From: Sphaerolaimus hirsutus
Lineage: Eukaryota; Nematoda; Chromadorea; Monhysterida; Sphaerolaimidae
DNA: 64,000 bases
NCBI GenBank assembly: GCA_964036195.1
Contig: OZ038457.1
Span: 6,475,147-6,539,146, forward strand
Direction: 5' to 3'
Position numbers and translations under genes: made by a program. Position 1 is the stretch's first letter. The number at the start of each line of letters is the position of its first letter. The notes under the pieces were generated by a model that did not search any database, was not told the origin of the DNA, and saw nothing but the letters and a program-made list of their open reading frames with translations. Shown here piece after piece: positions 1,263-63,861 of the stretch.

Positions 1263-1455
1263 GTGGCAGTCCCAAGCCCTGTAAAGTGTAAAGTAAAGTG
1301 TCAAATGTAACGTCAAATGCAAAGTAAACTGTCAATTGTCATGCAAAGTTCAGTAATAAAATCATTTCTTTTTTGTTTTGATTGACACTTTTGTTTGCAT
1401 TTGACTTTACATTTGACACTTTACTTTTCACTTTACAGGGCTTGGGACTGCCCCC
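1263..1455 (+). mobile_element. Introner-family element (subfamily with CCCAAGCCCTG ends)
   Basis: Starts GTGGCAGTCCCAAGCCCTG directly after CAG and ends CAGGGCTTGGGACTGCCCC. The ends are inverted repeats, and the interior holds inverted arms of TAAAGTGTCAAATGTAAAG type around an AATAAAATCATTTC loop. Same subfamily as 36784-36975 and 40975-41151. The right flank is CAA rather than CAG, so a splice acceptor is not preserved. No convincing exons flank it. Confidence 0.8.
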
Positions 1456-12071: not shown

Positions 12072-12887
12072 CAGAGTTGTGCAAATATTGGTATTTTTGG
12101 AAAACGTAAACGTCAACGTAAATACCTTTTCCAAATCAAAAGTATAAATACTAAAGCGTAAGGTATTTTTAAAATACCAAGGAATACGTTAAAAAAAACG
12201 TAAACGTAATTTTTTTACACACAGTGTTTGATGATGGAAAATACCATTATATTCACATTTAGATGGGTCAATCGCTCCATCTGCACCACTTTCTGATGTA
12301 AGTGTGGCCAAATCCAACTACGCTGGTGATTCTGGGGGAGTCCCATACCCTGTAAAATGCCTTGTAAAATGTCAAATGGCATGCACAGTGTCTAAAGTCA
12401 TGCAAAATGCCCTGGAAGGTGGCAAATCTTTGCCATTTTGCTGGGCATTTTACATGAGTTTTGACATTTGCATGAAATTTTACATTTTACAGGGTGTCCT
12501 ACAGAGTCTGGGATTGGCACCAGAGCTTGCACTCGCCTTACTAGTTTCAAAACGTGTACTACTCACAGTTGTTGCACGTGCGTCATCCGAACTCATCACA
12601 CAAAAATTTATAAACGCAATTTATTTTTATACATTTTTACTTATATGTTACTTTTATGCAAAAACATGAGAATATTGTTGGCTGCAGGTGGTGCAGCCCA
12701 TTTGAATATGTGCGCGTGTGAACGATCACAAGTTTTTTTTTACGTTTTCCCTAGTACCCGGGTATTTTGGTCAGGAAAACGTAACAAAACGTAATGGTAT
12801 TTTTGGAAAACGTAAACGTAAACGTAAGTATAAATACCCGAATAACCGGGTATTTCGGGTAAACGTAAATACGTTTTTCCAACTCTG
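12072..12887. mobile_element. CAGAGTTG-ended word element (AACGTA version) carrying an introner copy
   Basis: Ends CAGAGTTG and CAACTCTG. Next to each end are runs of AAACGTAAACGTAAAT and the frame GGTATTTTTGGAAA. An introner-family copy is inserted at about 12335-12527, with a right end reading TCTGGGATTGGCACCAG. The same skeleton with different words is found at 28590-29096, 37782-38568 and 62427-63570. Confidence 0.75.
12335..12527 (-). mobile_element. Introner-family element, diverged
   Basis: Left end GGGGAGTCCCATACCCTGTAAA follows CTG. Right end GGGTGTCCTACAGAGTCTGGGATTGGCAC precedes CAG. Inner arms contain AAAATGTCAAATGGCATGC and GCATGAAATTTTACATTTTAC. The GTGCC donor end is on the minus strand. 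It sits inside another transposon and not in a gene, which shows that family members move outside genes as well. Confidence 0.7.
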
Positions 12888-14897: not shown

Positions 14898-17800
14898 ATG
14901 TCTTCAATCAGCTTGGCGGCGGTGGTGTTCAGCTTCTTCACTGTTCAAGTGAGTGCAATGAAAATCACAAAATCATGAAAATATAGGCGCTGCGCACAAT
15001 AGTTCACACGTGTGTCCACTTGCCTTTGTCAACTCAGATTTCAGCTTCACGTGTCACGGAGGCTGTATGGCCCGATGCAACTCCCCCCGAAATAACAATG
15101 TTGCGAGTCATCAAAATTTGTTGCATCGCTCCACATTGAAAAAATATTTAGTTGATTCAGGGCACATTGTGTTGCATCGCTCCACATGAGATATTTCCGG
15201 TGCTCGCACGCATTGCGCAATAGCGCGTGCGGCAAAAAAACTAACATCAAAGTGGTCAATAGATCAATTGGGGTCACAAAAGCAAAACATAAGTGAATGG
15301 CTAATGGGGCATTGGATTTGACACACCTGACCCTGGTTCTGGCAGCAGACTAAAGCAAATATGTCCAGCTAATCCATGATTTGTTTGCCAATATTGAAAA
15401 TCGTTTTTTTTTGCTGGAGTGAAACTTGAGTCCTATTTTTCATCAGATTTCTCTTCAGATAAATGGATGAAGCTAGAAGCTATTCCAAATGACTGCCAGT
15501 AATAGCCATTTTCAGCACATAAGTGGCCCAACACATACTAGTTGACAACTGAAAATTCCTAAGCTGATGAATCTGTTTTAAACAAATTTCACTTTGCTAG
15601 AATAAATAAGTTGATGGAGATTAAAGATCTAATATTGACTAATACTGTTGACAAAAATTTAAAATCATTCATTATTGTGAACTCAAATGTGTTCAAAACA
15701 GATTTAAAAGTTTTGGAAATTTCAGTTGTCAACTAGTGTGTGCAGGCACAATCACACATATTTACTAGCACCTGTTTGCACAGACACATTCACCTCAATA
15801 CTTTTTGCCATTTTAAATGCCATTTTTACTTAGGTATATTCCATAAACAATGGGACTACCGCGGTGTTATTTCGGGACACAACGCGGGTGCGCGAGTCAA
15901 CTCCACGTCTGGGTTGATTCAGGCACATTGGGTTGTTGATTCGCAACACATGGCACTAGGGGGGTCAACATAGATGTTGGTTGCATCGGGACATATAGAA
16001 TGAGTTGATTCGGGCGGAGTTGACTCAAGCGCCCGTGCCGTCACGGAGCTATCTTCCAATGCACTTGTCGTAATGTGCCTGCGCACACTTATTTTCACAC
16101 GAAATTTCGAAAACTCACAAATCAGCTTAGAACGCATTTGAGTTTTCTACAATGAGGTGGCCGTCAACTACAGTTGACGGAGATTGAAAATGACTAATTG
16201 TCGAAAACTCAAACACGTTCAAAGCTTATTTATGAAGTTTCGAAATTTCGTGTGCGCAGGGCCAATATTTATTTTTCAACATTTCCGCATGTGCATTCGG
16301 AGATCGTTCAGCGACGCGTGAAGCCGAAATCTGATTTAACACTGACCAGTTGACACACAGGTGTCAAGTGTCAGCTAGTATGTGGGCCGCCTTTACATTC
16401 AAAACGACTTAAAACGACGATTCAAAATGCCAGGTTCTGGGCTGCGACGAATCTGACCTCAACTGCCGCTTTCATCAGTTCCGGCAGCAGCAAACAGGAG
16501 AGACAAGCAGACAAAGCAGACAGTTCGGCACCACCGCACCGCCCAGACGGAACTCTGACCATTGCGACTATCCTGAGTTATGGCTGATCACTGGCAGCGC
16601 AGATATCACCTGCAGTCGGTTTTATTGGACTGATTGAGTTTGAGCGGGTTTCGTTCGGTTTGAAAGTAGCCTGGGGACACACCCAGACCCTGTAAAAGAC
16701 CCTGTGCAGTGTAAAAGATGCTGTAAAATGTCATGTAAAATGCTGTGTAAGGTGTGAAATGTCATGTAAAAGACCCTGTAAAGTGTTATGTGTATCCAAA
16801 TCTTATTTTATTGTATCCAAATCTTATGTTTTTTGTATCAAAATTTTACTTTTTACATAAGATTTGGATACGATAAAAATGTTTGGATACACTTGGCACT
16901 TTACAGGGTCTTTTACAGGACATTTGACAGTCTCTTTCACATAACACATGATACTTTACAGGGTCTTTTACACTTTACAGGGTCTTTACACTTTACAGGG
17001 TCTTTTACACTTTACAGGGTCTTTTACGGGGTCTGGGAGTGGCACCTGGTTGACGGATGTAAGTAATGGAGTGATTACAGCTTGGATTACATCAATACCT
17101 TCAATGTGACCAAAAGTCATCGTCCACAGTCACTGCCATTTGATTGAGGAAATTCAAAAAATTTCTATTTTACGTTGAAATTTTACGCCAGCTGAAGAAA
17201 AATCAATTCTACGCTATGTCATTGCATGCAATCACCTGGCATAGAATTGACTTTTCTTCAGCTGGCGTAAAATTTCAACGTAAAATCGTAATTTTTGAAT
17301 TTTCACAATCAAATAGCGGTGACCGTGGACGATGACTCTGGGACACAATGAAGGTATTGATAAGCATATTGTCCATGAAAAAATGCAGACCTGTAAAATA
17401 TCATCATCCACTTTCATGTGATCAATTTTGCGATGAAATTTTACGCTGTAATTTTACGTCGAGCTGTAATCGTAGCATAAATGTGAAATGGATACGTGGC
17501 CGCATAGATTTGATTTTTCATTTCTTGTGTATGGTTGGAGATTGCAAAAGAGCATCCATTACCAATTGAATATGTTATCACTGGTGCTGTCAATTACCAA
17601 TTGAATCTACGGCACTGGCGCAGTTTTTCGCAAGCTAATTTCATCACTAAAGCATCACTAATGAGTAGATAATGAGTAACGACCACTCAATCACCACCAA
17701 ACTCAATTTCAGCTCGGCCACAAGTTGTAGGGCGCTACATGAAAGTTGACACTCGATCAATCACGATCACCCCCGATGTGATCAGACTACCCGGCTGTTT

Positions 17801-20800: not shown

Positions 20801-21731
20801 ACATCTAGTCGAAAAAATCGCAGTTCAATGCACTTTTTGTGCTACATCATTGGATTGGGATTAAAAAAATTGTGTTCTCTCAGCAGCACGCGCAATTTTT
20901 ACACAAAAATTTGCGCGAAGAGTAACACGACAACACTTTTTCATCGCCGCCAATGCCACACCCTGTCAAATTAACTCCCCCCACATCCTTCAATAATTTG
21001 TTTACGATTTTCGCTAAGGTCATTTAAATATTAAACCTGCACACTTTGCATGGAAAATTACATATCCATTCTGAATACTGCACCAAAATGAAAACCGTAT
21101 TCTTCTAATAGAACGGTATACCTCCAATAGAACGGCACCTCTAATAGAACGGCAGGTAAAAACGTTGACGAAAAAAATAGAACGGCGCTCTTCTATTAGA
21201 TTTGAAGTTATACGGTACATTGGTTTCACAGGGGAACTGTAGTGCAGAATATCTCACGCCACTTGATTCATCAAATTATGGTAACATCAGTGGCCAGTTC
21301 CGCAAATTGAGAAGTGAGAAGTGAAGTGGCAAATGCGAAGTGAATTGAGAAGAAAATTGGCAAAAGCGAAGTGAAATGGCAAGTAAATTGGCAAAAGCGA
21401 AGTAAAAATTTAAAAAATAAAAAGCGATTTCCCTTCGCTTTTGCCAATTTCCTTCTCAATTCACTTCTCATTTCACTTCGCATTTGCCACTTCACTTCTC
21501 ACTTCTCAATTTGTGGAACTGGCACCTGCAAAGCACTCGACCCAATTCTCACTCTATTACAGGGGACCCTACCTGGAATGGCTTTTGTATGAAAATCAAC
21601 TGGCGTGCATCAAATTCTCGTTCGATGTTTGCGACCAAGAACCGAAACTCCGCGAGCCGGTACCAGTGAACCCTTTCGGTTTCTCGCAATTTAACAAGGC
21701 CCAACCAAAGTACAAGTGTCCGACGTCGTAA
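14898..21731 (+). CDS. Secreted Cys-rich protein of unknown family (7 exons, 361 aa)
   Basis: Exons: 14898-14948, 16434-16614, 17713-17959, 18039-18162, 18242-18400, 18798-18952 and 21563-21731 (TAA stop). All have GT-AG boundaries and closing phases (0,1,2,0,0,2), for 362 codons including the stop. Exon 1 encodes MSSISLAAVVFSFFTVQ, a secretion signal, so the product is probably extracellular. After it come CDESDLNC, a Gln/Arg-rich linker, a beta-rich part (around MKVDTRSITITPDVIRLPGC) and a Cys cluster NNCYYCDICNG spanning the exon 3/4 junction. There is also one EF-hand-like loop, DADGDCKIDLGD, whose sixth position is Cys rather than Gly. A charged helix around LLKKKAEESLMRQKVERE and a C-terminal segment with three Cys ending KYKCPTS follow. 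I do not recognise the family; calcium binding is only suggested. Introns 2 and 6 contain antisense introner-family copies. Confidence 0.8.
15526..15752. mobile_element. MITE with CACATACTAGTTGACAAC ends, in intron 1 of the secreted-protein gene
   Basis: Ends CCAACACATACTAGTTGACAAC and GTTGTCAACTAGTGTGTGCAGGC are inverted repeats, with inner arms AACTGAAAATT / AATTTCAGTTG. Member of the CACACACTAGTT-ended group. A variant with CCTGCGCACACTT...GTGTGCGCAGG ends lies at about 16078-16262. Confidence 0.75.
16674..17045 (-). mobile_element. Introner-family element, antisense in intron 2
   Basis: Flanked by CTG on both sides, which is CAG on the minus strand. The right end reads GGGTCTGGGAGTGGCAC and the left end GGGGACACACCCAGACCCTG. 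The interior holds tandem TTTTACACTTTACAGGGTC units and arms containing ATCCAAATCTTAT / ATAAGATTTGGAT. The donor-like GTGCC end faces the minus strand, so it cannot act as an intron for this plus-strand gene. It lies wholly within a normal large intron. Confidence 0.85.
17116..17336. mobile_element. Palindromic MITE, GTCATCGTCCACAGTCA ends
   Basis: Near-complete palindrome: GTCATCGTCCACAGTCACTG pairs with GGTGACCGTGGACGATGAC, and TTTTACGTTGAAATTTTACG with CGTAAAATTTCAACGTAAAA. No flanking duplication was resolved. It lies in intron 2 of the secreted-protein gene. Confidence 0.8.
19531..20703. mobile_element. CCAACGATGG-ended element of GTGTTTTGAGTTTTT words, with nested insertion
   Basis: CCAACGATGG at the left and CCATCGTTGG at the right. 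Adjacent inner parts are long runs of TTTCTGTGTTTTGAGTTTTTC-type words. An ATTACCTCGAAATACCCC...GGTAATAAGGTAT element is inserted at 20004-20335. It occupies much of intron 6 of the secreted-protein gene. A plausible plus-strand frame at 19843-20000 (containing TTPATKCPEMTIYAVLQN) fits no splice phase of that gene and is not annotated as an exon. Confidence 0.65.
21291..21525 (-). mobile_element. Second introner family (GTGCCAGTTCCGCAAATTG ends), antisense in intron 6
   Basis: Left end TGGCCAGTTCCGCAAATTGAG and right end CTCAATTTGTGGAACTGGCAC. The arms consist of GAAGTGAGAAGTGAAGTGGC and AAAAGCGAAGTGAAATGGC words. On the minus strand the right end reads CAG/GTGCCAGTTCC, the same GTGCC start as family one. 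The splice-competent relative is at 30684-30843. Confidence 0.75.
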
Positions 21732-27930: not shown

Positions 27931-28589
27931 GGCTGCGGATTCGATTGCAGTCCGACTGCACGAAGTGGTGAGACGATGGACTTTGGACGCTGTGGGGTTG
28001 AGTAACTAGTGATTTTTGAAGTGAAGTCTGAAAGTGTGATGGTTGGCTTTGAGTGAGAATGAAGTGAGAGTTTTGTCGCCCTGCCGGCGCGCTTACATTT
28101 TCGAATTTTATCGCCGCCCGCCCATCGAACAGAACGGAAGCGCGCCGCGCCGCGCAAACCGGATTGCCGCCGCGCAAATGACCAAGTGTTTTGTTATCTG
28201 TGTCGCGCGATCGGTCACTCTCGCCGCGGATTACATGTTTGGTGACGCGCGCGCGGCGCAGAAAAACTTCGCGCCAGTGTCGATTCAGTGTCAGCTGGGT
28301 AAATTTGTCGCCGAAAGTGTGTAAACTGCCGGTTTATCGCCGCCCAACTAGCATCGGCAGTGGTTCACCAATTAGCCCGTGTAAATCTCGTTGTGTGTTC
28401 AGTGCGACGGCGGAATGTCATTTTGCGTGTTTTTACATTTTTTACGTCATTCTAGTGCCGCGGAGTGTATTGACGTGTCGGGAAATGTGAAACATGAGTG
28501 ATTCAATCTGAAGTTTGCGCTTAAATCTTGTTTGCGATTTTTGTTGCGATTTTGAATATCGCTTTTGACAAGCGAAGACGCGTTTACAT
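27931..28589. promoter_or_regulatory. GC-rich upstream region of the collagen gene
   Basis: CpG-rich, without repeats, and directly upstream of the collagen start codon. It contains GCCGCCCGCCCATCG and GCGCGCCGCGCCGCGC stretches. I see no clear TATA box. It probably holds the collagen promoter and 5' UTR. The Arg/Ser-rich frames it contains show no domain and are not annotated as genes. Confidence 0.35.
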
Positions 28590-30309: not shown

Positions 30310-33300
30310 ATGAGTGTTGATCTCAAAGCCCTGTTGGAACCGTATCAAGAGATATTGGAACCGATTGAACTGAAAGTTCAAGGTGTGTTATTAAATTTTC
30401 ACCCTCTCGCACCGCCAAACGGCGCAAAAAAAACAAAAAATAAAAGTTTCTGTGCAGTGCACGATACTGCTACGCACTGCAACACTCTGAGTCACAGTCA
30501 GGGACCTATTCCGCAGGTGTACAGATAATTGAGTAAAGTCAAGACAAAAAAACCCAAAGTATACCTATGAATGACAAGCAAAATACTTGCTACTTCACTT
30601 TTCCTGCGTTTTGATACTGCATCTACAACTTCTTGTAACTTACCATTTTTCTCACCACTGGTCCTCCCCACACTCGGAAAGAGGTGCCAGTTCCGCAAGT
30701 GCCATTTTACTTTTCAATTCACTTCCCGCTTCTCATTTTAGTTAGCTTTTGCCATTTTACTTGCAATATCACTTTTCACTTCTCATTTTACTTCGATATT
30801 GCCATTTTACTTATCACTTCTCTATTTGCGGAACTGGCCCCAGGTTCCCCGCACATAGGCACAATCCCGCAGTGGCTGCGCGGCAGTCTGCTGCGCAACG
30901 GGCCGGGCAGGCACGCCGTCGGCTCGCACACCTACAGGCACCTGTTCGACGGGCCCGCCTACCTGCAGCGGTGGAAAATTACACAGGTGCCAGTTCCAGA
31001 CAGTGTAAAAGATCATGTGTGGTGTAAAAGACCCTGTAAAGTGTCAAGTGTATCCAAACTTTATTGTATCGTATACAAATTTTTAAGTTTTTGTATCCAA
31101 ATCTTACTTTTGAACGTTTTTGTATCCAAATCAAGATTTGGATACGATACAAAAAATACACCGACACTTGACAGGGTCCTTCACATGACATTTGACACTT
31201 TACAGGACCTTTTACAGGACACATGACATTTTACAGGGTCTTTGACAATCTACAGGGTTTTTTTACAGTGTCTGGGACTGCCCCCAGGGCAAAGTGTGGC
31301 TGCAGGCGCGCTATTTGCGCTCGCGCACGGCCATTGTCAATGAGAGGAGCGGCGGCATAGCCCTGCCCGAATTTGGTACGCCAGCAGCGGCGGGAAATTT
31401 CATCCAGAGGTTTTTTGTCGACCCCACCGCTGGTGATAATGGCCTGATAAATGTACTCGATTCTAGCGGACGGATTTTCGCGTTGACTGAGACGCCTAGG
31501 GCTTGTCAAGTCGATGGAAGGACATTGGAAACTATTCGGAACGTGAGTTGTAACTGAGTGGGTGAAAATGGGAACTGAGAAGGGATAAGTAAAAAAATTA
31601 AAAATTATGTGAGACGGGTGAAACTCAGTATCGACTGAATTTAGACTGACTCGAATTGGAACATCAAATGGATTCTGGTCGATTGAACGTTACAAATTCC
31701 GCCATTTATTCACGCTTAAATTCCACAGAGCATCAACACATCACGTATACAAGAAGACAGTGCAATGAGTTGGCTGCCCTGGAAGACAACAAGAGTTTTC
31801 AGTCACACTGCACATCCGCATTTGCTCAAGAGCTCTAATGATAGAGAGCCTACAATTATCAACATTGGCACTGGCTACACACACTACCACATTATCTCTA
31901 CCACAATGTCAGAATATGGCACATTTAACCATGAATGGAAACTGCTGGGGTCATTACCATTCAGATCATTGAATCCATCTTACTACCACAGTTTTGCCGT
32001 GACTGATAATTTCGTGGTATTTTTCGAGTTACCACTGCAGTTAGACCTTTTTCGGTTGGCAACCAGCCAAGTTAGAGGCAAACCCATCATGGACGCACTG
32101 ATATGGAAACAGCAGCCGGTACAGTGATTTGTTGAATGTAAACATGCATTTTAATACGATGCGTTTTATATTTTCTCACATGTTTCCAGATAAAGGTGCA
32201 TTTATTCCCGATCAATTCAGATAAAACCCCAAATAGTTTGGAACTATGGGATATCGTGAGGGAGGCACCTGCGGCAATGGTATTTCACCATGTGAACGCG
32301 TACGAAGTGACATGCTCTCACGGTAAACTTGGCAAGCAGACACAAAGTTAAACAGACACACACATTTAAAGACGCAGATTTAACATTCATCATATGCGAC
32401 TACTGCGCATTGAATGACGCGGCATTAATAAACGAACTGCTAATTGACCAACTACTCGGTGACAAACTTCCACGTGACGAATCGCACCTGCACAGAATGG
32501 TAATCCCGGTCACACGCGCGCATGAACTACATGATGGTAACAGTCTGCTGTGCGAGCATATGGATACCTACACTCGTGGTGCGAGCGGGCATTGCAGCAC
32601 AATTTACAGGGTTCGAAGTGGCATAGGGGGAATATTGTGCACGCCTACGATAATGTGCGATATCCGTTGGTTTACAACAGTGATATTTTTGACGACTGGT
32701 TTGTTGGGTGTAAGTAAAATAACAACCATTTCTAAGTGCAGCATTCGACTTTCCACGCATCAATTATGACGGGCACAATGGTAAACGATATCGCCATTGC
32801 TATGGATGTTCACTGTTCGAGTCGGCAGGAGACGTTGGGGTATGTTTATCAGAGTTCAGGTCTATTGACTGTCCATTTTGCACTCAAATCAACGGTTTTA
32901 CATCAGTCAAAATACCGCATCAAAAATGATGTTTCCTAAAGACAGACTGCTTCCTAAAGAGAAACTGTTGGAAACAATGTGTTTTCTTGTTCAATGTTGG
33001 AGACGATGAACAGTTCAATGAATGAAGTTGATTAATTCATTCAATGAATCCACTTCCACGTGGCTGTATTCATCAGAATGTGGTAGCATTCAGTGCAGTT
33101 TAAATATAAATACCGTATTTCCTCATGACCCCAGGGTGTTTTCTATTTCGCCAGCAAATTTTGAGTGGGGGTGGGGTGATTCGAGGAAAGGGCTTATTCG
33201 AGGGCAGGATGTATTATGTCGCCAAAAACTTACGAAATTAGATTACTTATCCATTGTTTCTTTTTGCAGTCAGTTCACTCTTTACAGTCACATTGGGTGG

Positions 33301-34921
33301 GGGTATTTTAATGAGGTAAGGTTCTATTATTTCCCCAGCTCTTTTTTTTCGCCGAAACCTAGAATTATTTCGACGGAGGGGGGGGGGGGGGGTAATTCAA
33401 GGGGGAAATCGATGAAACACGGTACGTAGATCCAATCACCTGAAAGAATATTTGGAAGAACAATACATACTACTCAGTTGATCAAAGTGGACGTGAATCC
33501 GACCAGTGCTGGGCTCGCAGAACAGACTGTAAAAGTGTGGAGACGAGAACACAGGACGCAATTCTGCGGGGAGCCAGTATTCGTTGCCAGGCCAGGCGCC
33601 ACGCAGGGCGCTAATTTCACAACTTGTAAAGTGTCCTGTCAAGTGACAAGATTCACCAATTTCGGTAAATCATTTACTGGTTATCCGACACCTTCGCCAC
33701 TTGGTGTTGCTTACACATTTGAACATAAATCTACTTTCCAAGGAACTGAAATTTTCGCGTGAATAATGTCACTTCTCGGGACACTTTATAGGGTTCGTGA
33801 TTGGCCCTCTAGGAAGATGATGGTAAGTGAATCATCCAGTCCCATGTGAGCGATACAAAGTATTTCCTGATCCTGATCGGCAGGCGTGCTGATTTCGGCG
33901 GTGTGCAGCGCCGACGTGAACTCGGCGCCGGCGTTTTTGCTCATCGTGGACGCGCGCAGCATGAACGAATTGGCCAGGTGCCAATTGCGCAGCTTGTCAA
34001 TTGACGTGACAACTGTCAGAAATCGAGAAAAGTTGTAAATTTCGTGTGATATTTTTCGATCGCAATTGGACCATTTTCTCCACGACGGTAAAATGTATAC
34101 AACGACTAGGGTGTCAAAAAAATTTTCTTACGGAAAACGGAAACGGAAAAAAATTTCAGGGGTCGGAAAACGGAAAGGAAAACGGAAAAAAAATTGCACT
34201 TGGCGGAAAACGGAAATGGAAATGGGTAAAAAATTTTCAGTGGCCGGAAAACGGAAAAAGGGGCTGGAAAAACGGAAACGGAAAAATGAAATTTGCATGG
34301 AAACCGAAAAATTTGCTGAACATTTGCCAGAAAACGGATAAAATTTGCTGAAATCTTGCTGGAAGTGGAAAAAATTTGCAGAAATTTTGCTGGGAACAGT
34401 AAAAATTTACATAATTGACAATCTGCATGAATTTTTTTCCCAGTTTGGCTGGAACAGAAAACAGAAAGTTGAGCAAAAAAGGTAAAATGAGGCGGAAAAA
34501 CAGGAAATTGAGGCGGAAAACGGGAAAAAGGTGAAAAAACTGAAAATTGAGCCGGAAAACGGAAAAAAGGTGGAAAAACTGAAAATTTAGCTGGAAAACA
34601 GAAAATGAGCCAGAAAAACGGAAACAGAAAAAAGTGGCCAGAAAACGGAACGGAAAACAGAAAAAAAATTTCAGCAGCCTGAAAACGGAACGGAATACTG
34701 AAAAAATTTGCTTGCGGAAAACGGAAAACGGATTTTGACACCCTAACAACGACTGAATTTTGACAATAGTTTGACACTGCATGCAATCTGTCACTTTAGC
34801 TCGATTTTTGACAATTTTGTGCCGATGCCCGAGAAGCTGCGCAAATGCAACCAGAGCGATCGTACCCGGACGGATCCCATTTGCGCTGCACTGTCAATTT
34901 ATTCGCGATTTGTGTGATTGA
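30310..34921 (+). CDS. Carotenoid cleavage oxygenase, BCO1/NinaB family
   Basis: Exons: 30310-30382, 30844-30986, 31288-31542, 31729-32118, 32190-32322, 32372-32536, about 32610-32709, 32742-32839, 33478-33606, about 33813-33822, about 33892-33977 and 34855-34921 (TGA). Matches to the family in order: IPQWLRGSLLRNGPG, FDGPAYLQRW, VWLQARYLRS, SLNPSYYHSFAVTDN, FHHVNAYE, FDFPRINYDGHNGKRYRH, VKVWRRE, EPVFVARPGA, GVLISAV, LLIVDARSMNELAR and a terminal IPFALHCQF. All four iron-ligand His are visible (in SHTAHPH, YYHSF, FHHVN, FALHC). It should be a non-haem Fe(II) dioxygenase cleaving carotenoids to retinal-type products. The joint between the exons ending 32536 (phase 1) and starting 32610 (phase 0) does not close, so there may be an indel or an unseen boundary. 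Three introns are wholly or partly introner-like. Confidence 0.88.
30684..30843 (+). mobile_element. Second-family introner supplying the acceptor of oxygenase intron 1
   Basis: GTGCCAGTTCCGCAAGTGCC at the left and ATTTGCGGAACTGGCCC plus CAG at the right, with arms of CACTTCTCATTTTAC words. The right end is exactly the 3' splice site of intron 1: the downstream exon begins GTTCCCCGCAC and its phase matches exon 1, whose donor is upstream at 30383. The element therefore provides the acceptor and sits at the end of a longer intron. Confidence 0.8.
30987..31287 (+). mobile_element. Introner forming the whole of oxygenase intron 2 (301 bp)
   Basis: The exon ends AAAATTACACAG. The next base begins GTGCCAGTTCCAGACAGTG, and the element ends GTGTCTGGGACTGCCCC followed by CAG and then exon GGCAAAGTGTGG. 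The ends are inverted repeats; the 3-bp CAG occurs on both sides. Removing exactly this segment joins KIT-Q to GKVWLQARYL in phase 0, as family homology requires. Internal arms contain TATCCAAATCTT / AAGATTTGGATAC. Confidence 0.92.
33112..33422. mobile_element. ACCGTATTTCCTCATG-ended element in an oxygenase intron
   Basis: ACCGTATTTCCTCATGACC at the left and AATCGATGAAACACGGT at the right, with a GGGGGTAATTCAAGGGGG core. It lies in the intron between exons ending 32839 and starting 33478. Confidence 0.75.
33607..33812 (+). mobile_element. Diverged introner-like intron with non-canonical donor
   Basis: After exon ...CCACGCAG comes GGCGCTAATTTCACAACTTGTAAAGTGTCC. The distal end is GGACACTTTATAGGGTTCGTGATTGGCCCTCTAG, its approximate inverted repeat. 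The next exon carries the conserved EDDG/DDG of the family. No GT occurs at the expected donor: the intron would start GG, or GC if one base is moved. In that second case the acceptor may be GGAAG, giving phase-compatible D-D-G. Confidence 0.5.
33978..34854 (+). mobile_element. Introner-like last oxygenase intron hosting a nested element
   Basis: The exon ends GAATTGGCCAG, the intron starts GTGCCAATTGCGCAGCTTGTC and ends GAAGCTGCGCAAATGCAACCAG. The ends are inverted repeats and CAG flanks both. Splicing gives ELAR-AIVPGRIPFALHC, matching the family's C-terminus with its last iron His. At 34109-34743 a TA-flanked GGAAAACGGAAACGG-word element has inserted (GGGTGTCAAA...TTTGACACCC, inverted relative to 10729-11367), expanding the intron to 877 bp. 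Confidence 0.8.
34109..34743 (-). mobile_element. TA-flanked GGAAAACGG-word element nested in the last oxygenase intron
   Basis: Ends GGGTGTCAAAAAAATTTTC and GGATTTTGACACCC between TA dinucleotides. The host sequence is CAACGAC on the left and ACAACGAC on the right. The interior is nearly pure GGAAAACGGAAACGG words with AATTTGCTGAAAT blocks. It is the reverse-complement counterpart of 10729-11367. Confidence 0.88.
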
Positions 34922-35669: not shown

Positions 35670-35845
35670 TGGCAGTATCAGACACTGTAAAGTAAAGTGT
35701 CAAACGTCATGAAGTGTCATTTGTCATGACAAATGTAAAGTGTCAATTGTCATGCAAAGTTCAGTAATAAAATATTTTGGTTTTGTTTTGTTTGACATTC
35801 GTTGACGCTTCACTTTACAGTTTCAGGGTCTGGGATTTGTGGCAC
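35670..35845 (-). mobile_element. Introner-family element
   Basis: Left end TGGCAGTATCAGACACTGTAAAG and right end TTTCAGGGTCTGGGATTTGTGGCAC followed by CTG. The middle holds AATGTAAAGTGTCAATTGTC and a GTTTTGTTTTGTTTGAC loop. It lies between genes with its donor end on the minus strand. Confidence 0.7.
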
Positions 35846-35980: not shown

Positions 35981-36407
35981 TCAATCTCTGATGTGCGTCG
36001 GATCGGGCAGCAATATAAGAAAGCGTCGCTTGTCCACGCGGCTGCGATAGTTTTGCACTGTGTGCGGCACGGCCAGGGGGCAGTCCCAGACCCTAAAAAG
36101 TGTCAAATGTCATGCAGTGTCGAAAGTCCTGGAAAATGCCCCGCAAAATGCCAACCGAGATCCCATTTTGCAGGGCATTTTCCATGAATTTTGACACTTT
36201 GCATGACATTTGACATTTTACAGGGTCTGTGATTTGCACCAGGCGATACAAGCCGTGCCCCGTCGGCTTGGCGGGCATCAACGCGTTTCCGGTCACCTGC
36301 GACGAACCCCACGCCGTTGGCACGCTGCCGTATGAGAGCAGCGACAATAGCAATAACAGTGTTAGACGAGATGAACCCATAGCGATCAATATGTTTACGG
36401 TGTGCAA
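35981..36407 (-). CDS. Small secreted peptide-precursor-like protein interrupted by an introner
   Basis: Minus-strand exon 36407-36240 encodes a signal peptide (MGSSRLTLLLLLSLLSYGSV after an optional 9-residue lead) and continues to PTGHGLYRL. An introner-family element follows (36239-36074), and beyond it 36073-35981 continues in phase: AVPHTVQNYRSRV, DKRRFLILLP, then DPTHIRD and TGA. The total is 86 aa. The DKRR would be a typical prohormone convertase site, so a neuropeptide or hormone precursor is possible; no family recognised. The intron would have GT at the donor but TG at the acceptor, because the flanking duplication is CTG rather than CAG. If instead the next AG (CACACAG) is used, a different Cys-containing C-terminus results. 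Confidence 0.45.
36074..36239 (-). mobile_element. Introner-family element with CTG duplication in a small secreted gene
   Basis: On the minus strand: CTG, then GTGCAAATCACAGACCCTGTAAA, arms with CAAATGTCATGCAAAGTG and AAATGCCCTGCAAAATG, then TTTAGGGTCTGGGACTGCCCC, then CTG. The acceptor AG is missing because the 3-bp duplication reads CTG. Confidence 0.85.
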
Positions 36408-36783: not shown

Positions 36784-36975
36784 GTGCCAATCCCAAGCCC
36801 TGTAAAGTGTAAAGTAAAGTGTCAAATGTAAAGTCAAATGCAAAGTAAAGTGTCAATTGTCATGCAAAGTTCAGTAATAAAATCTTTTCTTTTTTGGTTT
36901 GATTGACACTTGACTTTGCATTTGACTTTACACTTGACACTTTACTTTACACTTTACAGGGCTTGGGACTGCCCC
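36784..36975 (+). mobile_element. Introner-family element, CTG-flanked, intergenic
   Basis: CTG / GTGCCAATCCCAAGCCCTG ... CAGGGCTTGGGACTGCCCC / CTG. Same CCCAAGCCC subfamily as 1263-1455, with AGTTCAGTAATAAAATC in the loop. No exon evidence on either side. Confidence 0.9.
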
Positions 36976-40947: not shown

Positions 40948-41326
40948 GCACAGTTGACACACGTGTGTCAACAGGTGGCAGTCCCAAGCCCTGTAAAGTG
41001 TAAAGTAAAGTGTCAATTGTAAACTCAAATGCAAGGTAAACTGTCGCGCAAAGTTCAGTAATAAGATCTTTTCTTTTTTGTTTTCATTGACACTTTACTT
41101 CCATTTGACTTTACATTTGACACATTACTTTACAGGGCTTGGGACTGCCCCCTGGAATCTGTCAACTCAAGATTTTGGTATTTCGTGTTCTCCAAATGCA
41201 TTAGCGGCAATGTTGGAAAAAAATTGCAGTAAGTGCATTGGAAGATCGCTCTGCGACACGGGAAGTCGAAATCTGTGTTGGCACAGACGAGTTGACACAC
41301 ATGTGTCAACTAGTGTGTGGGACGTC
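40948..41326. mobile_element. CACACGTGTGTCAAC-ended MITE interrupted by an introner
   Basis: Left arm GTTGACACACGTGTGTCAAC, right arm GTTGACACACATGTGTCAAC, with TAGTGTGTGGGAC outside. The introner element 40975-41151 (GTGGCAGTCCCAAGCCC...GGGCTTGGGACTGCCCC) lies inside. Its flanks are CAG on the left and CTG on the right. Confidence 0.75.
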
Positions 41327-49753: not shown

Positions 49754-51148
49754 ATGTCATTGAAGTGTGAAATGTGCAGTTTCCATGCATCGGATGCTTT
49801 GATTATGGATTTGCATTGCAGCATTTATCACACAATTGAGCATTATCATACGCTTTTTAAACAGGAGAAGCATCATGATGTCAAGAATAAAACCAGGGAC
49901 GAAATTAAATTAGCCCGAGACGTTTTTTTCGGGTAGCCCGATTTATCGTATCTGAGAGGGTATTTTCGTTGCTCGATTTAATGTGTTTCTGACAGGGGCA
50001 GTCCGAGGCACTGTAAAATCTCATGGCATGTAAAATACCCTGTAAAATGTCATGGCATGTAAAATATCCTTTGAAATGTAAAATGTCATGTAAAAGACCA
50101 TGTAAGGTATCATGTATGCAAATGTTCTTGTATCCAAATCTTACGTTTGGACATTTCGTTTGGGTTTCGATACAAGAACATAAGATTTGGATACTAGGAT
50201 AATATTTGGATACACATGACACTTTACAGGTGTTTTTGCATGGCACATGACATTTCACAGGGTCCGGGACTGTCACTTGGTATCCAGCGTGCACTGTACT
50301 CATGTAGACTGTCAGAAATACAGTAAATACGGCGGTCTGAAAGAAACATTGTTGGGCTAATTGAATTTTGTACCAGAAATGATGCATGCAGAGAATCCCA
50401 ATCTAGAGAAAATGAGCCTGCTAATGAGCTGAAAATTAGTGGGAAAAGTTTTCAGAGAAAGAGATCATCAGTTTGCACATTGTGCGACAAAGCATTTTTC
50501 ACGAAATATTTGCTGGAGCAACATATGAATGACAGGTCATTTTGGTGTTCATTTTGACAAATGTCTGAACAAAGCACCCTTTTGACCCGTTCCGAAAATT
50601 TGTTTGATGATTTTGAGTTTTAAAATGCAAAAACTTTTAAATTTGTAGTGCGATTATTCGACTTTTTGTGCCCCATCTCTAAATTTAAATACAGGCATGT
50701 TGCCAATTCATTCACACTGGATTCATCTGACAACCATATCAATTTACTTCTACATATCGACATATAAAACACCCCATGCAGGCACACGAGACTGAAACAA
50801 TTTCCATGCGATAAATGTACCTTCGTCGCTAGCCAAGCGGGCAACCTGCAAACGCACATGCTCACAAAACACAGTGACAAGCGTCACAGGTCACACGTCT
50901 GCTCACATTGCGATAGAGCATTCTTCACAAAGGGGCACCTCAAAGCCCACGTTGATTCAAGGCATTCTGTGTTCAGGATAGCGCACACCTGTGACGTCTG
51001 TGGCAAGGATTTTGCAACGAAAGGCATTCTCAAGACCCATGTCACACGTCATGGTGACACGTTAGTGTGTGCAGTTTTCCTAGTTTTTTTGACTATGACT
51101 TTAAAATGGTTGTTTGATAAATTTGATCACCAATCACGAAGGAAGTAG
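49754..51148 (+). CDS. C2H2 zinc-finger protein (about five fingers, model partly uncertain)
   Basis: Three coding pieces. 49754-about 49936 starts MSLKCEMCSFHASDALI with a C-x2-C-x12-H-x4-H finger. 50377-50535 has a basic/acidic linker, then CTLCDKAFFTKYLLEQ and HMNDR. 50782-51148 follows with three fingers: CDKCTFVASQAGNLQTH, CSHCDRAFFTKGHLKAH, CDVCGKDFATKGILKTH. The second and third pieces splice in phase (AG/GTCATT ... GCAG/G), completing the H-x4-H. The junction between pieces one and two does not close in phase and contains a reverse-oriented introner copy (49996-50276). The real first exon may therefore end elsewhere, for example at CATGAT/GTCAAG. The end may be a further splice at GACAC/GTTAGT. 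Expected nuclear DNA-binding factor; target unknown. Confidence 0.7.
49996..50276 (-). mobile_element. Introner-family element in the zinc-finger gene, antisense
   Basis: CAG/GGGGCAGTCCGAGGCACTG at the left, AGGGTCCGGGACTGTCAC/TTG at the right, arms with ATCCAAATCTTACG / TAAGATTTGGATAC. The donor-like end is on the minus strand, opposite to the host gene, so it should not itself define an intron here. Confidence 0.75.
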
Positions 51149-53553: not shown

Positions 53554-56500
53554 CTAAAACGCGGGCACCCTGCCGCCCTTGCTTCTATTCTCAATATCCC
53601 TTAATTTGCCCCACATCGTCACCATCGCGGTGAACACTTCCTTGCCGGCCAGGGGCACCTGGGGGCAGTCCCAGACCTTGTAAAATGTCAAATGCCATGC
53701 AAAGTGTCAAAGGTCATGGAAAATGCCCTGCAAAATGGCAACCGAGTTTCTGGCAACCGAGGCAACCGAGGGCTTTTTCCATGACTTTTGACAATTTGCA
53801 TGACATTTGACATTTTACAGGGTCTGGGAGTGGCACCTGATTGGCGTCCGGCGCGAAGCCGGACAAACTTTGGACGCCATTTGGTCGTAATTCGATTGTG
53901 TAGGCATATGGGATGTTTAGTGTCCCACGAGCCCAATCGTCGCTGGCGCCGGCAGCGGGGTCTGTGCGATACTCTTTGGTTTGGAATTTTGACCGGGATT
54001 TTGTTGTACTGTAAGTCCAAATGCAAATGGAAAATTTATTTTTGCGACACTGGTAGTGCGGAATTTTTTAAAGCTAGCTTTTTCTTGAATTCCTTCCCGT
54101 TTTCATGAACGTTCTATGACTTTGTGGCGTAGAGTGAAAGTGAGTGCCGGCTAGTGATGGAAAAGCCCCAGAAACAGAACGCCAATCGCGCAGTGGCGCC
54201 ATTCAGAAAAAGGGGGCCAGGCGCTATTCGAAAAGGGCGCCAGTAGTGATGTTAAAGGCACCGGGAAAAATGGCACCGCACCGCACCGGCACCTTTGCCA
54301 ACGCATGGAAAGGGCACCTGGCACCCTGGGGCACCGGCCAGAAAATGGCACCACACCGGCACCGGTGCCATTCGGAAAAAATGGCACCGGCACCGGCGGG
54401 TTACCGGTGCTAGCACCGAAAGGCACCGCACCGGGCTGGAATTTCCGAAGTAAATATCGGGCAGTTACTCAGTGGCCACACCTTCGGAAGTGCATATTTC
54501 CATGAATTTTCAACCGATTTTGATGGTTGATTACTTAAAATGATCAGAATGATGTGGCGATCACTTTTATGAAGCAATTACAATGATTACAAATGAAAGA
54601 TAAGATTTTTAATTCACTAGAAAGCCCATGGCCACTATTGTCTACTGATCAGGAGTCGTTGCTGTACAGGGAATGGGACTATCTCTGTCATAAACTGACA
54701 ACAATTTTTGAGCAAAATGTAAGAGAAATCTAAAATCTAAAAATGATTTAAAATTCAACAAAATTTTAGATTCGCTCATCAGATCACATATCGAGTATAA
54801 TGGATTTCACAGTAGGTATATTTATTTGATGGGATATTTACAAAATAGGCAAAAAAATGGTTGGGTAATTATATCGCTGTTTTTTGAAATATGAAAAAGC
54901 ACATACTATGGACAGCATTGCACAGCACATGAAGCCTTGGCCGGTGCCTTTCCCGGTGCCTTTTACTTTGGCGCTGGTGCTAGCATTTTTGGCACCGGCA
55001 AAAAAATGGCACCGCACCGGCACCGGTGCTATTCTGAAAAAAATAGCACCGGCACCGGCATGGCACCCCTGAAGATTGCAATTGCTCCGCACCAGCACCG
55101 GTACTGGTGCCCTTCGGTGCCCAGCACCAGGGCACCGGTGCCCCGGTGCCTTTACATCACTAGGCGCCAGACGCCGCGGAAAGAGGGAGCCATGGCACCA
55201 CAGAAAAAATGTGTCGATGGCGCCATTACACCACTAGTGCCCTCCCATTTAAAAACAACCTCCCACTCACACAGATCAGTAGAGTCCATGGCATCATACT
55301 GAGCACCATCAACCGCAGTCATAGCGGCGGCGGCGGCCTCTGCCACCTCCATCATGTCGTCGTAGTTGGAGGGGCGCGCGTTGTACGCGTACCCGTACGG
55401 CACCAGCACCATCTGCCCGAACGAGTGGATGGTCAGGTAGAGGTCCACTTGGCCTGTGGGTGGGGTGGGAAAAGGGGTTTAAGTTGATGTGTTGTTGTTT
55501 TTTGCAAGGACTTTATTTTAATTTTTCTGGTTAATTTTGGATAAATCCTTATGTTTTTCGGGCTGTACAGTTTTATCATTTTCGGCTGTTTTTTACAACA
55601 ATGAAATTTAAGTGTAGCATTGTTGCATTTAACGTGCATTTTCAACCAAAAAATTTCGAATATACACGACAGAGTCTTGTTTCTCATGGTGGGATAAAAA
55701 TCCGAAAACTCAAAAAAAGAAAACTAGTAAAAACATTTTTAAATTTCTGATTGCCATCCTTACCTGCGATCGGCTGCAGCGCATTTTCCAGTGCCTTGGA
55801 TTCCGGTTCGGACATGGCGCTCGTCCCTCTGTAGTTCTCGGTACATGGATACGGCGACGCGCCCGCAACTACGATTTTGAACTCAGATTTATGGTAAATT
55901 TAGAGAGCGAAGTTAAGTTACCTATTGGGCAATCGTGCGCAAGGAAATACGGCACGCACCTACGTGCGTATGTTTGCCATTTTACCAGGCATTTTCCATG
56001 ACTTTGACACTTTGCATGACAGTTGACATTTTACAGGGTCTGGGACTGCCCCCAGACTGCAAAAGAACAAACAAAAGAAAAGTTTGCAAAAATCTCACCC
56101 CCATAGTGGAATCCGAAATTGCGGTTCAGATCGACGCCTTCCGCGCAACATATATAGCACCTAGTTGGCGCTCGATTCTTGCGCCAATAGCGATTCTGCA
56201 ATTTCACAATGGGCTTTAATGAAGTCTCATTTCATGTTGCAACATTGAAAAGTAGTCCACCCGACCCCAGTGCCCCAGGAGTAGACATATCCGTCTGGAT
56301 TGAGCGACGGCACGACGTACACGTCTGCGGTGTCGAGCAGCTCGTTGACGCGGCTGTCCTGCCGGGTGAGCAGCATCCACAGCACGTGCAGCACGGCGCC
56401 TGCGGTCACTCTTGGTGTAACTTTAAAATGTGTTTTTTTGCCGCTCCAGTTTCTGACCAGACTTTAGTGAGTGTGCGTTATTTGGACAAAAGTGCATTCG

Positions 56501-61232: not shown

Positions 61233-63861
61233 TCACCAAGTTCCAGGCGGGGGCTGGTGCGCGGGCGGCATGGGAGACCACCGCGGCGGCAGGGGCTCGG
61301 GCGGCTTGGGCGACCACCGCGGCGGCAGGGGCTCGGGCGGCATGGGCGACCACCGCGGCGGCTGTCCGCGTTTGCTTCTGCTCTCAATATCTCTTATTTT
61401 GTGCCACATTGCAAATATGGCATTGAACACTTCGTTGCCAGCCACGGGCACCTGGATGCATTCCCAGACCCTGTAAAAGACCGTGTAAAGCGTAAAAAAA
61501 CTGTAAAACGTCATGTGTCATGTAAAAGACCGTGCTAAATGTTATGTGTCATGTAAAAAAAACTTTCATGGTCTTTTACATGACACATGACTAGGGTTGG
61601 CCGATGCTTTTTAACGTTTTTTCAAAAAAAAGAAAAGTTTTTGTTTTTTTAAACATGACGTCCGAAATGTTTTTTTCAAACATTGGCCAAAATTTTTAGT
61701 ACTAAGCACTAGGTATTTTGCAAAATTTGATACACATTATTATTGACCACATAATTATACACTTATTCAACTCTTGTCCAAGAGTAAGATTTGGATACAA
61801 AAACATTGGATTTGAATATACGTTACAGTTCACATGGTCTTTTACATGATATTTGACATTTTGCCAAGCCTTTTACACTTTCAGAGTCTTTTACAGGGTC
61901 TGGGACTGGCACCTGATCGGCATTTGGTGCGAATCTCATACGACTCCAGGTACTGTCGTTATTTTTGTCAAAGGTAGGTCCCAGTTCGATTGTGTACGAG
62001 TATCGAATATTCATTGTGCCACGTGCCCAATCCATGCTGGAGCCAGTTCCGGGGTCTGAAATACGTTACTAGCGAGATTCTATCTGAACCTTTGGTCCGG
62101 TTTCGCAGTATTCATCACTTTCACAAATACTATCTGATATTAACCTGAATTATCAACCCCCCCCCCCTCAAAAAATACGGTAGTTGTGAACTGACTGGGG
62201 CTCAGCGTCACTGGGACCGGGGCTCACACTTTACTAATGTGTACCTCGAGAAAACATACACAACTCATCCAGATGTATGGCATCATACTGAACACCATTG
62301 ACTGCAGCCATTGCCGCGGCGGCAGCCTCGGCCACCTCCATCATGTCGTCGAAGTTGGGGGCGGGCTGAGAGCACTCACAGACCATGTAAAGTGTGAAGT
62401 TAAGTGTCAAATGTCATGTAAAATGCACAGTTGCGAAAGCGTATTCACGCTTACCCGAAATACCCGGGTAAATGGGTATTTATACTTATGCTTACACTTA
62501 AGCTTTCGTAAAATACCCTTATGCTTTATTACGCTTTCCTGGCCAAATTACCCACATACCAAAAGTGTAAAAAAGCTTTCACATGGCGCAGTAAAACTAT
62601 AAAAAGAAAATGAAAAAATACAAAAAATAGAGACTGTGTGTGTGCAGTATTGCACTGGAAATAGCGGCACATGCATATAAATCATGTCGCAATATGAATG
62701 TCTGATCAATATTGTGTCGTCAAGCAATATCGTGGCGTTAGATTAATTCAATGTACCGTATTACCTCGAATTATCCCCCCCCCTTGAATACCCCCCCCCC
62801 TCGAAATACCCCCCCCCCCTAAATTTCGGCTGAGGAAATAATAAACCCCCCCCCCCCTCGAAATACCCCCCTAAATTTCGGCTGAGGAAATAATAAACCC
62901 CCCTTCTCGAAATACCCCCCCCCCCTAAAATTGAGTGTAACGTGAACGTACATGACAAATACCGCAGTTTGTGATCTGTACTATGCAGAACACACGTTAA
63001 AACTGATGATTAAGTGACGTAAGGAAGGGTTTTTGTGTATATACAGTAATATATGCCTATAAACACATAAATCTATGTGATTGTTCGATTTTTCTACGTC
63101 TGCGTATGGGGAATTTCCGAAAATTTCTGGCGAAATAATAGACCCCCCTCGAATAAACCCCCCCTCGAATTATCCCCCTCAAATTTTGCTGGCGACATAA
63201 TGAACCCCCTGGGGGTATTTCGAGGTAATACGGTACGTAATTTTGGGACCGAAAATGGATTCCGATGACTATGTTGTTTCCGATGACCATGTGTTGCTGT
63301 CGACAGCACCGTCAGCACGAAATCCAAGTTAGAAGATGATATAAGTATCACTGCCGATGAATTGCTTTGAGGGCAGACTGCCAAATGGACATCCGAAAAA
63401 TGTCACCGAGAGCTAGATTTGAAAAAAATCAAATGAGCTTACGCTTTTTTACGTTTTCTTAGGTATTTTCAAAATACCTTACACTTACAGTATCCATATT
63501 CAAAATTTGGAAAGTGTATTTATGCTTACGCTTACGCTTTCCAAAAATACCAGTATTTTAACAACTCTGGTAAAATGTCAATCAAAACAAAACAAAAAAT
63601 ATTGTTTTATTGAACTTTGCATTACAATTGACACTTTGCATGACATTTGACACTTTACTGACCACTTTACAGGGTCTGGGATTGGCACCTGGTTGGCGTA
63701 GGGCACCAGCACCATTTGCCCGAACGAGTGTATAGCCAGGTACAGGTCCACTGTACTTGCGATTGGCTGCAGCCCCTTCTGCAGTGCCTTGGATTCGGGT
63801 TCGGACATGGCTCCCGTGCCGCGGTAGGTTAAATCACATGGCTGGTCTGATGAATCTGATC
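61233..63861 (-). CDS. Second M14A zinc carboxypeptidase, 3' part only (paralogue)
   Basis: Exons in the window: 63861-63689, 62365-62260, 62055-61913, 61451-61233 (TGA); the 5' exons lie beyond the right edge. Closely similar to the 53.6-58.5 kb gene: MSEPESKALQKGLQPIA, YLAIHSFGQMVLVPYANQ, NFDDMMEVAEAAAAAM, SSMDWARGTMNIRYSYTIEL, RMRFAPNADQ, VPVAGNEVFNAIF. Zinc His and catalytic Glu are kept. Differences: the exon 8/9 intron of the first copy is absent here, and an introner (62366-63688) interrupts a position that is continuous in the first copy. The C-terminus adds about three RWSPMPPEPLPP repeats. Same secreted exopeptidase role expected. Confidence 0.88.
61452..61912 (-). mobile_element. 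Introner forming the last intron of carboxypeptidase 2 (461 bp)
   Basis: Minus strand: GCCGATCAG / GTGCCAGTCCCAGACCCTG ... CAGGGTCTGGGAATGCATC CAG / GTGCCCGTGGC. CAG is duplicated. Same gene position as the 53659-53836 introner. The middle is enlarged by an insertion with a TAGGGTTGGCCGATGC end at about 61593. Confidence 0.9.
62427..63570. mobile_element. CAGAGTTG-ended word element (AAGCGTA version), nested
   Basis: CACAGTTGCGAAAGCGTATT at the left and ACCAGTATTTTAACAACTCTGG at the right. It has the same skeleton as 37782-38568 (GGTATTTTTGGAAA, ACCCGGGTA, TTTCGGGTAA), but the repeated word is AGCGTA with some AGTGTA. 62755-63234 is inserted inside it. Confidence 0.82.
62755..63234. mobile_element. 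ACCGTATTACCTCGAATTAT-ended element, innermost nested layer
   Basis: ACCGTATTACCTCGAATTAT and GTATTTCGAGGTAATACGGT ends with CCCCCCCCTCGAAATACCCCC blocks and one GAACGTACATGACAAATACCG segment. The outer flanks read ATGT and ACGT. Confidence 0.88.

Follow-up and report, generated by a model that had tools for sequence, protein, structure and literature searches.

Intron gain is among the oldest open questions in genome evolution, and the locus considered here raises it in a concrete form: whether an intron of a protein-coding gene was made by a mobile element whose own ends define the splice boundaries. An earlier note on the window (the whole stretch of 64,000 nucleotides that was analysed) had described the second intron of an oxygenase gene as an inverted-repeat element running from the donor GT up to the acceptor CAG, with end sequences recurring across the window, and had taken this as evidence of intron creation by transposition. 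Gozashti et al. (2022, PMC9860276) surveyed elements of this kind, known as introners, across a wide range of eukaryotes and placed them in only two animal groups, with copepods named and the word "nematode" absent from the main text. In the account of a comparison of 104 nematode genomes, no source sequences were identified for intron gains in Caenorhabditis (PMC9169325). We describe below the element, its family and its target, the evidence that its copies lie in genes as introns, and the way in which it may generate them.

An intron coextensive with a foldback element

The gene belongs to the RPE65 family of carotenoid oxygenases, and its relevant features, in positions of the window, are:

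30310..30382, + strand: exon 1 of the oxygenase gene (tblastn of the joined protein; Pfam RPE65)
30383..30843, + strand: intron 1, GT..AG (sequence; frame continuity)
30684..30840, + strand: sister-family element that has the outer 11 nt GTGCCAGTTCC but another interior and makes up the 3' part of intron 1 up to its end (inverted repeat 30676-30698/30826-30848)
30844..30986, + strand: exon 2 (tblastn of the joined protein; Pfam RPE65)
30984..30986, + strand: upstream CAG of the target duplication, giving the donor context CAG followed by GT (sequence)
30987..31284, + strand: introner, a long-subfamily foldback element whose 5' tip is the GT donor (profile match, E 2.8e-52; sense coding flanks)
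31262..31266, + strand: TTTAC of the terminal repeat, a candidate branch motif 22 nt upstream of the acceptor (putative function)
31285..31287, + strand: downstream CAG of the target duplication, which is the acceptor of intron 2 (sequence)
31288..31542, + strand: exon 3 (tblastn of the joined protein; Pfam RPE65)

Intron 2 extends for 301 bp from a donor GT at 30987-30988 to an acceptor AG at 31286-31287, and the element within it has inverted-repeat arms that are 83% complementary over 54 nt, with further pairs besides. Excision of the element together with one CAG restores the RPE65-family frame, joining exons 2 and 3 as ...RWKITQ/GKVWLQARYL... (the slash marks the junction), and residues 28-285 of the resulting protein match Pfam RPE65 with E 6.3e-43, a span that crosses the junction after residue 72. 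Foldback arms, flanking CAG duplication and restored frame together bear out the earlier description of this intron, with an amendment as to the origin of the acceptor, which that description overlooked: 3 bp of the target are duplicated and the closing CAG is the downstream copy, so that the element itself measures 298 bp (30987-31284) and the acceptor is part of the target and not of the element. The sister-family element in intron 1 has flanks GAG/CAG, by eye without a clean duplication. A further sequence resembling an element end, GTGCCAATTGCGC at 33978, reads by eye as ordinary coding sequence close to where the oxygenase gene ends.

Copy number, subfamilies and copies in the window

The recurrence of the end sequences across the window holds on counting, the end 15-mer GTGCCANTCCCAGAC occurring 14 times with up to two mismatches (two of these being the oxygenase element's own ends; shuffled sequences gave a mean of 0.22 and a maximum of 2) and a profile search giving 18 hits that cover 3,465 of the 64,000 bases. 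The exact 15-mer is present 5,904 times in the 348-Mb assembly (2,975 + 2,929), compared with 0 for the reversed-pattern control, and extrapolation from the window, if it is typical, would put the family at about 1e5 copies genome-wide.

A short subfamily has a consensus of 190 bp (27 sequences aligned; foldback recognised by eye) and a long one a consensus of 319 bp (8 sequences) that folds end to end. Three copies in the window, J, K and L, form by eye a third subfamily with TCCCAAGC ends, and the sister family with GTGCCAGTTCC ends has, also by eye, only the outer 11 nt in common with the introner family. Copies are close to consensus, with a median identity among short copies of 91.1% for 39 flanked by CAG and 92.6% for 21 flanked by CTG, and those in the window that are readable at both ends have by eye GT at one end and usually GG at the other. 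Besides the oxygenase element, the window contains the following:

1263..1454, + strand: copy L, third subfamily, flanks CAG/CCA (flanks; profile hit)
12334..12520, - strand: copy A, short subfamily, flanks CTG/AGA (flanks; profile hit)
16674..17045, - strand: copy B, long subfamily, CAG/CAG (flanks; profile hit)
21293..21525, - strand: copy O2, sister family (profile E 6.8e-8)
35671..35845, - strand: copy P, diverged member (profile E 7.9e-13)
36077..36239, - strand: copy D, CTG/CTG (flanks; profile hit)
36784..36975, + strand: copy J, third subfamily, CTG/CTG (flanks; profile hit)
40975..41151, + strand: copy K, third subfamily, CAG/CTG (flanks; profile hit)
49995..50276, - strand: copy E, long subfamily, diverged ends CAA/TGT (profile match 49995-50264)
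53662..53836, - strand: introner F, short subfamily, flanks CAG/CAG, present as an intron in a zinc carboxypeptidase gene (Pfam Peptidase_M14 across the junction, E 1.3e-7)
55970..56052, + strand: partial copy G, 3' end only (profile hit)
61455..61912, - strand: introner H, long subfamily with additional sequence, flanks CAG/CAG, in a paralogous carboxypeptidase gene at the same site as F (Peptidase_M14 across the junction, E 6.1e-4, below the family cut-off)
63613..63688, - strand: partial copy I, 5' end only, preceded by CAG (profile hit)

Introners F and H thus belong to different subfamilies and occupy an identical site in paralogues, and a comparable pair on contig C1 (L041 and L042) consists of elements of 149 and 315 bp at an identical site in similar genes; a swap of elements, gene conversion and repeated insertion at a hot target are alternative accounts of such differing elements at a shared site.

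Target site and duplication

Target preference was assessed on the first-listed 100 exact 15-mer sites, which lie on contig C1 and represent 95 loci with 99 distinct anchors. The triplet upstream of the element is CAG at 48 of the 99 anchors, CTG at 34 and another triplet at 17, and the 84 sites with a clear 3' end divide into CAG/CAG (26), CTG/CTG (19), mixed CAG and CTG (10) and other combinations (29). Flanking triplets are identical at 46 of these 84 sites, against a mean of 26.6 and a maximum of 39 in 2,000 shuffles. Since a C precedes the triplet at 61 of 99 anchors and a G follows it at 47 of 84 sites, the target is the palindromic CCWGG and the duplication is CWG. Throughout the genome, CAG stands before the exact 15-mer 2,504 times and CTG 2,351 times, and this presence of CTG instead of CAG at nearly half of the CWG-flanked copies is a second feature that the earlier note overlooked. 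In the larger C1 sample used below, which is enriched for CAG sites, CAG/CAG accounts for 47 of 129 copies with a clear 3' end and CTG/CTG for 24 of 129, the CTG/CTG end not being AG. The family has three of the attributes by which introners are recognised: it is a dispersed repeat family with introns as members, it has target duplications and terminal repeats, and its limits of similarity are the splice boundaries, the 5' tip being GT and the 3' boundary, in CAG/CAG copies, the duplicated CAG.

Junction peptides and coding orientation

Peptides joined across the copies were compared with Pfam for 41 joins from 40 copies, picked for long joined frames and including 6 antisense readings. A match at E<=1e-3 crosses the junction in 9 of the 41: RPE65, Peptidase_M14 twice, EF-hand, LRR (whose best stretch extends 3 residues beyond the junction), Neur_chan_LBD (the ligand-binding domain of nicotinic-receptor type, in copy L040 with flanks CTG/CCG), Oscp1 (E 6.8e-19), PAN_1 and zf-C2H2. 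A tenth junction, that of L063, is cadherin by comparison with PDB chains, the best of which matches with 1.4e-22 as a complete chain; its Pfam match has E 0.052. Weaker junction matches were obtained for VWD in L104 (0.0087) and cadherin in L131 (0.28), and in L132, which is FAT4-like cadherin, two domain matches end on either side of the junction. For the remaining 32 of the 41, Pfam showed no match spanning the junction at 1e-3, a set of ten among them yielding nothing, and PDB searches with L098 and L051 gave nothing useful. L131 and L132 (C1 7358502-7360465) are two introners about 1.3 kb apart, seemingly in one cadherin gene. Elsewhere on C1, at about 3.68-3.99 Mb, the pairs L070/L080, L071/L079 and L072/L078 have similar flanking peptides in opposite orientation, which suggests a large inverted duplication.

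The orientation of copies relative to coding sequence was called from 60 nt per side by a codon model whose training set was confined to genes of the window, the threshold being the 95% level of random positions, at which about 6 coding calls are expected by chance among 129. The coincidence of elements with exon junctions, which the earlier note had proposed to count throughout the genome, has in this way been examined in part, in a sample from one contig: among C1 loci (157 anchors, of which 129 have a clear 3' end) the flanks are sense-coding at 28, antisense at 2 and ambiguous at 5, with 94 not callable. The excess of sense over antisense (P=8.7e-7) favours RNA splicing. The 28 sense calls comprise CAG/CAG (15), CTG/CTG (7) and other flanks (6); the oxygenase element is also called sense, its gene being itself in the training set of the model. 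As for the antisense cases, L009 has GTGCCA at both ends, and hence a donor in either orientation, and L151 is barely above threshold. The sample is non-uniform, L104-L143 having been picked as CAG sites (40 of 52 new) and L146-L165 as CTG sites (20). Taken separately, the CAG replicate of 38 distinct anchors gave 11 sense (two of them, L114 and L115, near-copies), 0 antisense, 19 without a call and 8 without a clear 3' end, and the CTG replicate of 20 anchors gave 5 sense, 1 antisense, 10 without a call and 4 without a clear end. In these GC-rich flanks, counts of open frames and lengths of runs are too weak as measures: joined frames are open over 180 nt in the sense direction in 12 of 21 CAG/CAG and 9 of 12 CTG/CTG copies (antisense, 10 and 6), random 180-mers are open in 971 of 5,000 cases, and run lengths are nearly alike for exact and shifted joins.

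Creation of introns by transposition, as first proposed for the oxygenase gene, is supported by the ten junctions with domain matches and by the bias in coding orientation, and we consider it very probable that the introner is a non-autonomous foldback DNA transposon whose cut-and-paste insertion gives rise to introns. Ordinary transposons might instead have landed in pre-existing introns, their edges coinciding with the splice sites by chance or through later trimming. Such a history would suit the sister element confined to the 3' part of oxygenase intron 1, as well as the different subfamilies of F and H and the unequal lengths of L041 and L042 at shared sites, yet insertion inside an intron would not place a target duplication at both splice sites, and of the ten junctions with domain matches all but that of L040 have CAG on both sides, the duplicated CAG itself being the splice triplet; we regard it as highly improbable. 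Still harder to credit is excision at the DNA level, resembling that of ciliates, by which exonic elements would be lost precisely from somatic DNA and the spliceosome would never be involved: exact restoration of a single CWG suits CAG and CTG copies alike, including L083 (CTG/CTG, with an end lacking AG), but the 28:2 orientation bias is expected under RNA splicing and not under excision by a transposase, and the GT tip is present at one end, like a splice donor.

Copies flanked by CTG

Insertion of a transposon that yields introns accounts directly for CAG copies and leaves the CTG class to be explained. CTG/CTG and CAG/CAG copies are alike in the frequency of sense-coding calls (7 of 24 and 15 of 47), and exonic copies of both classes have a median identity to consensus of 92.1% (11 CTG and 23 CAG copies, in lists made partly by eye). 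In four of the seven sense CTG/CTG copies an AG lies nine bases short of the point where the duplication ends, as GGRAG in L075, L103 and L161 and as GGCAG in L146, and would give an in-frame acceptor with nine added bases. Neither GGRAG nor GGCAG occurs near the tip of the other three, L024, L057 and L083, which either need a TG acceptor or are unspliced. L083, whose tip lacks AG, has a joined frame resembling a class B GPCR (CTG/CTG) that aligns without gaps at the junction to VIP receptor 2, a weak match (E 0.016). Among copies with mixed flanks, 2 of 8 CTG/CAG (L147 and L149) and 0 of 5 CAG/CTG are sense-coding, and in L147 and L149 a right triplet that looks as if it had mutated would yield a canonical AG acceptor.

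The chances are about even that exonic CTG copies are simply unspliced, as disruptive insertions on one haplotype or in dying gene copies, and that introns derive from the CAG class only. The CTG triplet contains no AG, and L024, L057 and L083 have none near the tip either, as this explanation would have it; against it, CTG copies lean towards sense as well (7:1, P=0.07), their exonic copies are no less diverged than exonic CAG copies, and the in-frame AG acceptor is on offer in four of seven. It is rather unlikely, on our estimate, that one family makes two kinds of intron, CAG copies giving GT-AG introns and CTG copies giving introns that end in TG, or at the tip AG (e.g., GGGAG) with three extra codons. 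Were it so, the spliceosome of this organism would use TG as an acceptor throughout the genome, some 22 nt away from a strong TTTAC branch site. TG can act as a 3' splice site in human U2 introns (PMC2374985), and the human cases, as reported there, involve 36 genes and alternative sites and no transposon class. In larvaceans, introner transposons with weak splice sites are put forward as a possible source of diverged sites among non-canonical introns (PMC13326754); in contrast to what is described in that source, the evidence here is mainly for canonical GT-AG introns, GT-TG being only a possibility for the CTG class.

Relation to known introners and transposases

Like the introners described by Gozashti et al. 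(2022, PMC9860276), the present element is a non-autonomous DNA element with terminal repeats and a target duplication whose boundaries are those of the intron, and like the Chrysochromulina introner of that survey it carries the 5' splice site and obtains the 3' site from the insertion site. As far as the survey's text goes, it differs from those introners in its 3-bp CWG duplication, its palindromic CCWGG target and its apparently nematode host. Our search of the open-licence literature found no published nematode introner or Harbinger introner.

A CWG duplication, found here, is a feature of the NuwaI group of the PHIS (PIF/Harbinger-ISL2EU-Spy) superfamily described by Han et al. (2015, PMC4482050), in which the tip is usually GGG and whose hosts are given as bony fish, a beetle, a crustacean, a mollusc and an anthozoan. 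The introner resembles NuwaI, as characterised in that report, in the duplication and in having an animal host, and may resemble it in the tip: the 3' tip read inward is GGG in 55 of 72 copies, while the 5' tip, by which the 72 copies were chosen, is GTG. Matches to DDE_Tnp_4 in the genome number 163, with 150 of 306 candidates scored. A search for a transposase that mobilises the introner did not find one in the one abundant Harbinger family compared, represented by two copies, L144 and L145 (C1 20512000-20516500 and 24533697-24538197), with the left end outside the stretch compared: this family is probably not the mobiliser, its right end being GGGGCC followed by AAT or TAT and not by CWG. 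Over 3.9 kb the two share 99.1% identity, and they have two short ordinary transposase introns; an excess of 192 nt in the Harbinger transposase matches was considered as a possible introner, but the copy inspected shows by eye two such introns instead and has no convincing element hit.

Host and neighbouring sequences

The impression of a nematode-like host is supported by one gene tree, in which the GMPPB protein of the window groups with six nematodes among 23 rows (support 100/99; nematomorphs not included). Its top identity is to Romanomermis (72%), and the first match by E-value is a copepod-type protein (61%). The host may on this protein safely be called a nematode or nematomorph. The GMPPB gene itself (44391-48561, - strand) has no family profile hit inside, and its introns are ordinary by eye. 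Elsewhere in the window, open frames with short G-X-Y blocks like those of nematode cuticle collagens lie next to Q-rich repeats (22356-28000), and degenerate arrays of TTTTCCG or AAAACGG occur in opposite orientation at 10739-11346 and 34130-34660.

A proposed mechanism and its implications

Splicing itself, the branch point and the class of transposase are here predicted from sequence. A transposase, probably of the CWG-duplicating, Harbinger-like NuwaI group, would make a staggered cut in the palindromic CCWGG target and duplicate CWG; the 5' tip of the element would provide GT, and the 3' tip, read inward, would usually keep GGG. Insertion into CAG in coding-strand orientation would then produce a pre-mRNA of the form ...CAG/GTGCCA...TTTAC..22 nt..CAG/... 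(slashes marking the splice points), with the tip serving as donor, the TTTAC of the terminal repeat as likely branch point and the duplicated CAG as acceptor, and removal by splicing would restore the original exon exactly. TTTAC is a good branch motif, and of the 72 C1 copies that have the same CWG triplet on both sides, 59 have it 22 nt ahead of where the duplicated triplet ends; the AG within TTTACAG would be too near the branch for use. The lone difference between the tips, GT versus GG, would suffice to make such a transposon an introner, and an order of these two tip states may be proposed by analogy because the NuwaI tip is GGG.

A high-copy family near its consensus in a nematode-looking animal makes the birth of introns directly testable, and the combination of a one-base asymmetry of the tips, a palindromic target and CAG and CTG classes amounts to a natural experiment on the requirements of a 3' splice site. 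If the link to NuwaI is true, introners would be tied to a Harbinger-like group of transposons.
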